This document shows, in pieces, positions 13,739-26,550 of a DNA stretch of 32,016 nucleotides. Numbering within the stretch: position 1 is the stretch's first letter; each line of letters starts with the position of its first letter. The stretch is from Bacteroidota bacterium. Its GTDB lineage: Bacteria; Bacteroidota; Bacteroidia; Bacteroidales; F082. Where the stretch lies: positions 1 through 32,016 of the forward strand of contig QMPO01000004.1 of NCBI GenBank assembly GCA_003648625.1, given 5' to 3'. The position numbers and the translations under genes were made by a program. The notes beneath the pieces were generated by a model. It had not been told where the DNA came from, ran no database searches, and worked only from the letters and a program-made list of their open reading frames with translations.

Positions 13739-14431
13739 TTAAGGGGTTACAAGCTTAAAGCCCACGCCGTGCACATTTATTAGCTCAACTGACGGGTCGT
13801 CTTTAATGTATTTACGCAGTTTGGTAATATATACATCCATCGAACGGGCGTTGAAATAGCTGTCATCGTACCAGATCTTATTTAAAGCAACAGAACGATC
13901 GAGTACGTTGTGTTTATTCTCGCATAAAAGTTTGAGCAGCTCTGCCTCTTTCGAGGTAAGTTTCTGCTGCTTCTTACCCAACAGGAGCATCTGACGGTTA
14001 TAATCAAATGTATATTTTCCAAATGTATATCTCCGGTCTTCAGGCTTGTCTTTGTTCTCTTCGGCTCTGCGCATGATGGCCCTGATGCGCATCAGCAACT
14101 CTTCCATGCTGAATGGCTTGGTAAGGTAGTCGTCGGCACCAATTTCAAATCCGTGGATCTTATCCTCCTGCATCGATTTGGCAGTTAAAAACAGAAAAGG
14201 AATTTTTTTATCCAGTTTTCTGATCTCTTTGGCAAGGGTAAACCCATCCATAACGGGCATCATGATATCCAGAATGCAAAAATCGAATTCGTTTCGTTTA
14301 AAACTTTCAAGGGCTTCTTTACCATCTACGGCCAGCGTTACATGGAAACTTTTCACTTCAAGATAAGTTTTCAGAACGTTTCCCAGATTTTTATCGTCTT
14401 CTGCCAACAGTATGCTAATTTTTTTCTTCAT
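13739..14431 (-). CDS. OmpR-family response regulator
   Basis: ILLAEDDKNLGNVLKTYLE, DFCILDIMMPVMDGFTLA, PFLFLTAKS, GADDYLTKPF; C-terminal winged helix LTSKEAELLKLL...VYITKLRKYIKDDPSVELINVHGVGFKL. Confidence 0.95.
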   Translation of the reverse strand: MKKKISILLAEDDKNLGNVLKTYLEVKSFHVTLAVDGKEALESFKRNEFDFCILDIMMPVMDGFTLAKEIRKLDKKIPFLFLTAKSMQEDKIHGFEIGADDYLTKPFSMEELLMRIRAIMRRAEENKDKPEDRRYTFGKYTFDYNRQMLLLGKKQQKLTSKEAELLKLLCENKHNVLDRSVALNKIWYDDSYFNARSMDVYITKLRKYIKDDPSVELINVHGVGFKLVTP

Positions 14432-14434
14432 AAG

Positions 14435-15865
14435 TCATTGTTTTAAAGGTAGCCGAATGGTAAAAGTAGATCCTTTGCCCAATTCGGAATCAACATGAAC
14501 ATTTCCTTTGTGTAAATCAATAATAGATTTTACATAACTGAGCCCCAGTCCGAATCCTTTGAAATCGTGGATATCGCCACTCGGTACGCGGTATAATTTT
14601 TCAAATATTTTTTTCTGATTTTCTTTACTGATACCAACACCATTATCCTGAACACGAATGAGTAAGGTATTGTCCCGGTTAATAGTATTGATGATAATAT
14701 GGGGTGCATTGATAGTATACTTCAGTGCATTGTCGATCAAATTAATAAATGCATTTGTCAAATGAACAACATCAGCTTTTATAATGGATTTTTCCGCTTT
14801 TAACTGCATTTCAATAATACCCCCTTTTTTCGTCGCGATCATTTCTTTACTCCCGACAGCATTTGAGATCAAATCGTGTATGTCAACAACTGTTCTCTTC
14901 AGCTTTAACTGTCCTTTATCAATAATGGCTGTCTGTAAAATTTGTTCCGCCATAGATTTTAGACGGTTATTTTCTTCATTGATTACACCAATATAACTAT
15001 TGTATATCTCCGATGACTTTTTAAGGTCTTCATCCTTCAGGGCCTCGCAGGCAAGGGCTATGGTTGATATGGGTGTTTTAAATTCATGCGTCATGTTGTT
15101 GATAAAGTCATTTTTCATGACCGAAAGTTTCTTTTGCCTGTTTATGATATAAATACTGAAAGAAAAGGAAAGAATAATGACAATAAAAAGAAAAACAGAA
15201 ATGATCAGCAGTTTCCAGAGTTGCCTGACAATAAAACTTTTTTCGTTGGGGAAAAACAACAATAACTTGTTAGACGGAGCAAAAAGAGAAGTTATAGGTG
15301 CCAGGTCATATACGTAGCTCTCTTTTAATAACTGCTCGGGATAAGCACCTGTACGCTGGACGAGCATTGAATTGGTAGCAGGACTGTAAATGCCAAATTC
15401 GTGTTTTGTGGTGATGTTGTGTTTCTTCAGTTGTTTGGTAATAATTGAGTCGATCAGGTCTTTATGGGCTACGAAAAAACTTCCCGTTTCGTTAGCAGCC
15501 GGATGTAATGACAATTGCCAGTTCGCCCGGTTGATCATTTTATTGGTTTTTTTGAGAATGTAGTCGATCTCGGATATAGAATTTATGCTTCCGGCTCCTC
15601 TGGCAAGCAGTAGGTTCAGTGAGTCGTATATTTCATAAATACCCTGGCTTCTTTGAAAAAGTTTCCTTTGTTTTTTGAGTCTGTCTTCTAGTCGTGCTTT
15701 GTCGAGCTCATATATAGCACTGGTCATAGCCTGGTCAAGATCCCTGAGAAAAACTGCCTGTTTTACTTTTACAGCATCCCTGATCCAGTACACCTGAATG
15801 ATCATCAGGCCAATGGTGGCCATAGTAACCAAAGTGATAATTAAAAATGTTGACCATTTATTCAC
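14435..15865 (-). CDS. sensor histidine kinase, partner of adjacent response regulator
   Basis: Two TM segments, FINNMTHEFKTPISTIALACEAL (H-box), NLIDNALKYT (N-box), VQDNGVGISKENQKKIFEKLYR, GFGLGLSYVKSIIDLHKG. Confidence 0.95.
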   Translation of the reverse strand: MNKWSTFLIITLVTMATIGLMIIQVYWIRDAVKVKQAVFLRDLDQAMTSAIYELDKARLEDRLKKQRKLFQRSQGIYEIYDSLNLLLARGAGSINSISEIDYILKKTNKMINRANWQLSLHPAANETGSFFVAHKDLIDSIITKQLKKHNITTKHEFGIYSPATNSMLVQRTGAYPEQLLKESYVYDLAPITSLFAPSNKLLLFFPNEKSFIVRQLWKLLIISVFLFIVIILSFSFSIYIINRQKKLSVMKNDFINNMTHEFKTPISTIALACEALKDEDLKKSSEIYNSYIGVINEENNRLKSMAEQILQTAIIDKGQLKLKRTVVDIHDLISNAVGSKEMIATKKGGIIEMQLKAEKSIIKADVVHLTNAFINLIDNALKYTINAPHIIINTINRDNTLLIRVQDNGVGISKENQKKIFEKLYRVPSGDIHDFKGFGLGLSYVKSIIDLHKGNVHVDSELGKGSTFTIRLPLKQ

Positions 15866-15961
15866 ACAACAAATTTAAGGCTTCAAATAATTGATATACA
15901 GCTTTTAACATTTATTAACACTTGTTAATCTTACTTAACATTTATGGAAAGTTGAATGATA

Positions 15962-15969
15962 TACTTTTG
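15962..15969 (+). promoter_or_regulatory. Bacteroidetes-type -7 box TACTTTTG (matches TAnnTTTG)
   Basis: Exact match to TAnnTTTG, with a weak -33-like TTTA 17 nt upstream; lies immediately upstream of the predicted sRNA stem. Confidence 0.5.
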
Positions 15970-15972
15970 TTT

Positions 15973-16098
15973 CAGAATTTGAATGATAAACTATTTGTCA
16001 TCATAGAGGTTTGCTCCCCGCAAACCGGACAAATTCTGCTTTATTTCATAATTGTTGGTTTTTGGTTAAAACGGCCCTGAAAAAGGGCCGTTTTTTTA
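15973..16098 (+). ncRNA. candidate small structured RNA / dnaG leader, three-way-junction fold plus terminator
   Basis: P1 CAGAATTTG(15973-15981)/CAAATTCTG(16030-16038), 9 bp perfect; P2 ATGATAAA-CTA-TTTGTCAT (15983-16001, 8 bp with one T-G pair); P3 GGTTTGC-TCCCC-GCAAACC (16008-16026, 7 bp perfect); terminator downstream. Confidence 0.6.
16068..16098 (+). terminator. intrinsic terminator
   Basis: AAAACGGCCCT-GAAAA-AGGGCCGTTTT (11-bp stem 16068-16078/16084-16094) running into a T-run to 16097. Confidence 0.85.
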
Positions 16099-25265: not shown

Positions 25266-25709
25266 ATGAATAGAGTCAGAACATTTGTATTCATTGTCAT
25301 AGTTTTAATTGCTTTTTCAGTAAAAGCGCAATATTCTGGTGATGAAAAAGTTATAGTTAAAGGCGATCCCCGCATCAGCGAGTTGGTAGATTTACATATG
25401 GCTTACAATGAGCAATTCCCTGTAATGGATGGTTACCGGATACAATTAATGATGAGGGCCGGAAACTCAGCCCTTGACGAAGCAAATGAAATTAAAGAAA
25501 AATTTGAAGAGAGGTACCCTTACATAAAATCGTACATCACGTTCCGGGAGCCCTATTACCTTTTGCGTATTGGGGATTTCAGAACAAGGCTGGAGGCCAT
25601 TGAGTTTTTGGAACGCATTAAAAGGAATTATCCTCAAGCCTGGGTTATAAAAGATAAAATCGAGTTTCCTGAATTAATAAAATATCAAAAAACCGACAAT
25701 TATGAATAA
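25266..25709 (+). CDS. exported SPOR-like domain protein
   Basis: Signal peptide; GYRIQLMMRAGNSALDEANEIKEKFEERYPYIKSYITFREPYYLLRIGDFRTRLEAIEFLERIKRNYPQAWVI. Confidence 0.75.
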   Translation: MNRVRTFVFIVIVLIAFSVKAQYSGDEKVIVKGDPRISELVDLHMAYNEQFPVMDGYRIQLMMRAGNSALDEANEIKEKFEERYPYIKSYITFREPYYLLRIGDFRTRLEAIEFLERIKRNYPQAWVIKDKIEFPELIKYQKTDNYE

Positions 25710-26550
25710 AAAGATTCTTGTAGGCATCGACTTTTCCGATTGCTCTATAAACGCTTTGGAACATGCCATTACAATCGCACAGAAAGCTTCCTGCGGAATT
25801 ACCATGGTTTGGGTAAACCATCTTGATTATTCGAAAGAAATATTTGCAGTGGAACCTAAAGATTTGAGAAGTGAAGTGGGAAAAAGATTTGATGAGCTAA
25901 TTAAAAAGTATAAAAGTAAACTAGGAAGGGAAGTTTTAGATTATCAAATCAAAAAAGGCAAGGTTTACAAAGAAATATGTAATGCTGCCGAGGAGCTGGA
26001 CGCTTTTTTAATCATTATTGGAACACATGGCTCTACTGGGTTTGAAGAATTCTGGATCGGTAGTAATGCCAACAGGGTAGTTTCTTCTTCCAAAAAGCCG
26101 ATTATCACTATCAGAGCAGGGGTTAACGTGAAAAAAGGTTTAAAAAAGATAGTGATGCCTTTTGACAGCACCAAGATGACGCGGCAAAAACTTCCTATGA
26201 CGGCGCTGCTGGCAAAACTTTTTAACGCAGAAGTTCATTTGCTGGGCATGTACACAACCACCCTGGATGACATTAGATACAGGATACAGAATTATATAGA
26301 ACAGGCCAAGGATTATCTGGAAGAGAATAAAATTTTGTATAAGGTGGAGTTTATTGAAACAGATAACATAACGGAAGCTACTATTGCGTATGCAAAAAAA
26401 ATAGATGCAAATCTGATCTCGATCATGACAGAGCAGGAAACAAAAACGTCAAACCTTTGGTTAGGTCCGTATGCCAGCCAGATGGTGAATCACTCGCCGG
26501 TTCCTGTGCTTAGCATACATCCTGACAGGATCAGGTTTTATCTGGGATAG
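25702..26550 (+). CDS. universal stress protein (tandem UspA domains), paralog of 24419-25252
   Basis: ILVGIDFSDCSINALEHAITIAQKA, DAFLIIIGTHGSTGFEEFWIGSNANRVVSSSKKPIITIR; overlaps the SPOR gene by 8 bp. Confidence 0.92.
   Translation: MNKKILVGIDFSDCSINALEHAITIAQKASCGITMVWVNHLDYSKEIFAVEPKDLRSEVGKRFDELIKKYKSKLGREVLDYQIKKGKVYKEICNAAEELDAFLIIIGTHGSTGFEEFWIGSNANRVVSSSKKPIITIRAGVNVKKGLKKIVMPFDSTKMTRQKLPMTALLAKLFNAEVHLLGMYTTTLDDIRYRIQNYIEQAKDYLEENKILYKVEFIETDNITEATIAYAKKIDANLISIMTEQETKTSNLWLGPYASQMVNHSPVPVLSIHPDRIRFYLG

Follow-up and report, generated by a model that had tools for sequence, protein, structure and literature searches.

Positions 15973–16097 of a 32,016-nt stretch of DNA from a Bacteroidales bacterium of the lineage F082 (contig QMPO01000004.1 of assembly GCA_003648625.1; the whole stretch is called the window here) quite probably encode a trans-acting, base-pairing small RNA (sRNA), which would form the non-coding output arm of RprXY, the histidine kinase and response regulator encoded beside it. 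Judged by its neighbours in related genomes, the sRNA is an independent gene of the RprXY system and not a leader of dnaG, the gene that follows it. The family is new, with no match in Rfam and no literature found on an sRNA of RprXY, and the mechanism proposed for it is of a known kind. The phosphorylated regulator, RprY, would bind a row of TTAAC repeats and switch the sRNA on, and might autoregulate rprXY as well. A linker, held unpaired between a 5′ domain and a terminator, would then pair with positions −19 to +7 of target mRNAs, thereby keeping ribosomes from loading, since both start codon and A-rich enhancer would be covered.

The folded RNA structure at these positions is real. It has a minimum free energy of −41.6 kcal/mol, compared with a mean of −26.9 (sd 3.5) for shuffled sequences (z −4.24), and none of 200 shuffles folded as well. 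The stretch scanned for terminators holds one terminator-like site, where 0.1 would be expected by chance, and the sRNA has a single copy in its own genome. A first-pass annotation, made from the letters of the window without database searches, had described a −7 box ending at 15969, a stem starting at 15973, hairpins, a linker and an 11-bp terminator, all of which are borne out by sequence and fold. The closing stem (P1) is present in the fold of the window but is less universal than that annotation had assumed, because it is absent from the fold prediction for two congeneric genomes (L011 and L012). P1 is kept in many relatives with little covariation, as its 3′ strand is itself conserved; in a seven-sequence alignment (MAFFT, in which the inner hairpin was misregistered) its pairs were 86% paired and no double change was found in it. 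Double changes in that alignment were confined to the terminator, and across relatives double-sided changes were seen at six of seven terminator pairs (a separate core-plus-terminator alignment had the terminator misaligned). Thus, the structural support consists of conservation and of covariation in the terminator, without covariation in P1.

The neighbourhood of the sRNA in related genomes is dominated by the two-component system. An exact scan of the named genomes for the core of the linker found 59 stretches: 36 sRNA loci, defined by the presence of promoter, core and terminator, and 23 occurrences elsewhere. When the proteins of the window were compared with these loci by tblastn, 35 of the 36 proved to have a divergent rprX, always equally far away, and the remaining locus begins too close to the end of its contig for rprX to be called; the response regulator stood behind the kinase gene wherever the contig extended far enough. 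Seen from the kinase, core and terminator were present in the divergent intergenic region at 55 of the 58 rprX loci of the family, and the three exceptions were a contig end (L252), a diverged core in the same layout (L251) and a true loss (L256). By contrast, dnaG is directly downstream and co-directional in only part of the sRNA loci. It is absent or displaced in, for example, L040, L042, L058, L067, L072, L074, L079, L080 and L082, and displaced to +1476 to +2889 in L041, L050 and L061. Because the downstream gene changes while rprX/rprY stays, the sRNA belongs to the two-component system and not to dnaG.

These comparisons bear on the alternative offered by the first-pass annotation, namely a trans-acting sRNA or an attenuator or riboswitch of dnaG. 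The sRNA half stands, with its own promoter, terminator, single copy and deep conservation, whereas the other half fails, as dnaG lies downstream in only some relatives and rprX/rprY is always the divergent neighbour. A cis-acting leader whose terminator gates read-through into dnaG would fit the 58 nt between the end of the terminator and the dnaG ATG (16156), as well as the many relatives with a co-directional dnaG downstream. It was rejected because of the gene neighbourhood, no riboswitch family matches, and the most conserved part of the RNA is an unpaired antisense sequence rather than a ligand pocket, with no conserved antiterminator pairing; we regard such a leader as extremely improbable.

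The regulator gene adjoins that of its cognate kinase, and the pair is kept in relatives. Its product scores 325 bits against the NCBIfam model of RprY and 193 bits against the next family. With its paired kinase and regulator, the latter closest to RprY, the locus resembles the RprXY systems of Bacteroides fragilis and Porphyromonas gingivalis, for which no sRNA partner is described in the papers found (PMC4072883, PMC3646045, PMC6032018).

The promoter of the sRNA has a rigid geometry. Its TTAAC box, in which the direct repeats follow one another with a 10-bp period, is kept beside rprX across the family, and a match without mismatch to all four repeats occurs in its own genome at this locus only. 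From the start of the fourth TTAAC to the −7 box (TAnnTTTG) there are exactly 27 nt at 45 of 45 family loci; the bases in between vary. The same spacing recurs at 11 loci that belong to other families within the order. A search for the whole promoter architecture throughout the taxonomic class gave matches in 7 of 395 genomes (none for the reversed control), and a related kinase gene lies beside four of the six matches outside the window's own genome. In other orders (L366, L364, L367, L368), four TTAAC repeats, 22 nt and TAnnTTTG stand divergent from related kinases; what follows this promoter is a short, terminator-bearing unit resembling an sRNA in L366, and protein genes in the other loci. 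L256 (genome G042) is the only rprX locus in the family from which the sRNA has been lost, and the third repeat of its box is degenerate too.

Activators of the OmpR/PhoB type use tandem half-sites of 10 bp that adjoin the −35 region. Because the 27-nt spacing is exact at all 45 loci, the TTAAC box has the appearance of a site for a response regulator, positioned to control the sRNA, and RprY may bind it and activate the gene. The rigid register to the −7 box, which dispenses with a −33 element, is of the PhoB/OmpR activation type and makes it unlikely that RprY instead represses the sRNA, or that the box serves only the autoregulation of rprX, with the sRNA on by default; the joint loss of sRNA and third repeat at L256 argues in the same direction. 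Repression could draw on the position of the box, which is nearly fixed relative to rprX too, on its persistence at L194, L200 and L201 without a recognisable sRNA, and on the RprY of P. gingivalis, which is described as both an activator and a repressor (PMC3646045).

The region of the sRNA that has changed least is the 29-nt linker, which the first-pass annotation had treated as a spacer. DNA searches of relatives gave strong matches in many genera, confined to the linker and excluding the stems, and in searches and alignments alike the linker core was invariant across genera. The core reads UUUCAUAAUUGUUGGUUUUUGG, and its reverse complement is the Bacteroidota translation start region CCAAAAACCAACAAUUAUGAAA. 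Of the 23 exact copies of the core that are not part of an sRNA locus, 22 run antisense to the start codon (ATG) of an open reading frame of at least 66 aa. These 22 loci (L046–L096; Flavobacteriales, Chitinophagales and Bacteroidales) have the exact 21-nt core antisense to the starts of unrelated genes, mostly for secreted proteins, and CAAAAACCAACAATTATGAAA appears to be a recurrent start context in Bacteroidota. Since an invariant, unpaired stretch is antisense to start codons, the sRNA probably switches off the translation of a few genes when RprXY fires. Such covering of starts has a tested precedent, because FopS and GibS of Bacteroides thetaiotaomicron use a seed that covers start codons, with translational repression shown (PMC11697453, PMC7366714).

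The linker could also owe its conservation to protein binding instead of antisense pairing, either by an RNA chaperone or as a sponge that takes up an RNA-binding protein. Its invariant stretch of about 22 nt exceeds the typical length of a seed, and the RRM protein RbpB binds FopS RNAs (PMC11697453). However, RRM_1 proteins, common in the rest of the family, were not found in G000–G003, all four genomes of the window's own genus, in which the core is identical. Dependence on an RRM chaperone was therefore rejected, and help of the RbpB kind is not needed for the core to be conserved. As a protein site would also leave unexplained both the complementarity to start codons and the retained pairing with the candidate target described below, we consider it highly improbable.

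The RNAs fall into three classes, A (the window type), B (L036 and others) and C (L147 and others), whose 5′ domains are unrelated or strongly diverged. What they have in common is UUUCAUAA(U/A)UUKUUGGUUUUUGG, followed by a terminator that changes with compensation. In genome G016 (L282:3698–4654), rprX was not found, and the divergent neighbour of its class C sRNA is an RprY-like regulator (45% identity; RprY the best match by 80 bits); loss of rprX with rprY kept is known from P. gingivalis. At the level of the order, the same layout with drifting cores occurs at many, not all, rprX loci: 17 of 34 passed a mechanical test for promoter plus terminator, and more did so by eye, while the layout was not seen at L194, at L200 or at the most distant rprX-like loci of the order (L228–L233). 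A looser core pattern searched across the order gave mostly chance-level matches at three mismatches; at zero mismatches, 3 of 3 lay beside rprX or rprY.

Targets were predicted in a sample of 432 kb of the window's own genome (20 stretches of about 20 kb plus the window), containing 308 start regions. The strongest pairing of all, at −24.0 kcal/mol (the next being −19.1), is with the leader of the second of two neighbouring universal stress protein (Usp) genes of the window, Usp2 (25702–26550), which would rank first among the targets in the group of the window. Its orthologues in 26 class A genomes, each paired with the sRNA of its own genome, gave a median of −17.9 kcal/mol; 23 of the 26 were at or below −15, and in 22 the pairing beat its own shuffles at p ≤ 0.05. 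For the neighbouring paralogue, Usp1, the median was −10.6, with only 1 of 24 at or below −15 and 5 of 24 beating shuffles. Usp2 paired more strongly than Usp1 in 23 of 24 genomes (paired Wilcoxon p 6e-7, ignoring relatedness).

Several observations weigh against the picture of an RprY-activated repressor of Usp2 and a few other genes. Averaged over the 308 start regions, pairing was −9.04 for the core and −8.75 ± 0.29 for shuffled cores, 9 of 60 of which were as low; because the core is no better than shuffled cores on average, most predicted targets would be noise, and a general anti-start RNA is ruled out. Class B lacks the Usp2 pairing and class C has it in only some genomes, so targets would differ or shift between classes. 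The Usp2 gene start is overlapped for 8 nt by a SPOR-domain gene (25266–25709), the predicted sRNA site lying inside the overlap region, and coding constraint at the 3′ end of that gene may therefore account for part of the conservation of the leader. Fold predictions show a partly paired seed for several RNAs of class C and some of class A, and class B retains only two of the four repeats. The regulator's score is below the curated RprY equivalog cut-off of 370, and, judged by sequence, RprY could be either an activator or a repressor of the sRNA.

Features of the sRNA locus and of its candidate target in the window
Feature	Position	Strand	Remarks
Response regulator gene	13739–14431	-	OmpR family; best NCBIfam match RprY
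Histidine kinase gene, RprX-like	14435–15865	-	Divergent from sRNA; Pfam HisKA + HATPase_c; invariant neighbour
Four TTAAC(A) direct repeats	15905–15939	+	Between rprX and sRNA; putative RprY (OmpR/PhoB-family) box
−7 promoter box TACTTTTG	15962–15969	+	Bacteroidota type (TAnnTTTG); fixed distance from TTAAC box in all aligned loci
sRNA gene	15973–16097	+	Predicted transcript of ~125 nt; fold z, conservation
5′ domain	15973–16038	+	Structured, fast-evolving; P1 around two hairpins
P1, 9 bp	15973–15981 with 16030–16038		
First hairpin	15983–15990/15994–16001		
Second hairpin	16008–16026		GGTTTGC-TCCCC-GCAAACC; UCCCC loop 16015–16019
Unpaired linker, 29 nt	16039–16067	+	Invariant core 16044–16065 = UUUCAUAAUUGUUGGUUUUUGG; proposed antisense seed against translation starts
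Intrinsic terminator	16068–16097	+	11-bp stem 16068–16094, T-run to 16097; covariation
Best predicted target site	25687–25709	+	Translation start of Usp gene 25702–26550; near-perfect complement of the core

The 5′ domains hold further motifs. The UCCCC loop, which the first-pass annotation had put forward as the seed, is kept only in some genera, namely that of the window and, as AUCCCAAAC, genera g10 and g11; this rules it out as the main seed and leaves it at most a secondary one. At loci of two genera (L013, L014, L017, L026–L028, L031), the apical loop AUCCCAAAC stays the same on a stem that varies, which points to a second site that functions in single-stranded form. The 5′ domain of class C (L147–L157, L272–L280) carries ACCAAnAATTTATGTT, complementary to the seed of the same RNA, and the seed there is predicted to be mostly paired; ACCAAnAATTTATGTT might be a built-in target mimic or a mask for the seed. 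In class B (L036, L063, L087, L088), the motif UUUUCAUAAUUUU occurs a second time, in the 5′ domain, where it may be a second seed.

In enterobacteria, OmpR controls the sRNAs MicF and OmrA/B. The present case resembles these in having an OmpR-family regulator, tandem 10-bp half-sites and an sRNA predicted to block translation starts; it differs in that there is no sequence relation, that the sRNA gene is fixed beside the kinase and regulator genes and that there is no evidence of Hfq. Among known RNA families, none reached its Rfam gathering score in the window, all matches being far below, and the 6S, 6S-Flavo, Bacteroidales-1 and riboswitch families, suggested for comparison by the first-pass annotation, gave no match even at E ≤ 10. 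Membership of FopS (RF04319) was rejected at 22.7 bits (E 0.11; gathering score 56) and that of RteR (RF04181) at 21.8 bits (gathering score 72). RteR of CTnDOT is also a Bacteroidota sRNA with a terminator at its end, but its match consists mostly of the terminator and the U-rich linker.

In FopS, as by computational prediction in the window's sRNA, an unpaired seed is complementary to regions where translation starts. FopS RNAs, however, are about 65–70 nt long, occur in 12–15 copies per genome, have their seed at the 5′ end and are bound by RbpB (PMC11697453), whereas the sRNA of the window is about 125 nt long, is single-copy, has a structured 5′ domain and lies beside rprXY in a genus without detected RRM_1. 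GibS differs in lying beside glycogen genes and in having other mRNA targets (PMC7366714). Rfp18 of Flavobacterium, which is reported to use its third stem-loop for pairing with mRNAs of proteases (PMC9723704), is likewise a conserved, structured sRNA of Bacteroidota; it is set apart here by its description, in which no link to RprXY is reported.

In our judgement there is an even chance that RprXY with its own obligatory sRNA is a unit common to the order Bacteroidales, in which the seed would mimic the antisense of a start region free of Shine-Dalgarno sequences. Such a unit would provide an envelope and stress system with an arm for translational repression, one that outlasts the loss of the kinase and whose seed could, in class C, be masked by an internal target mimic. 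RprXY is the single two-component system scored essential in a transposon screen of B. fragilis (PMC4072883), and little is known of its output, for which a dedicated sRNA would be a concrete and testable candidate. For RprY, a candidate binding site is offered: four TTAAC repeats with a 10-bp period, 27 nt from TAnnTTTG. Regulation by sRNAs antisense to start codons, as with FopS and GibS in Bacteroides, would thereby be extended to environmental Bacteroidales, including a genus in which no RRM chaperone was detected.
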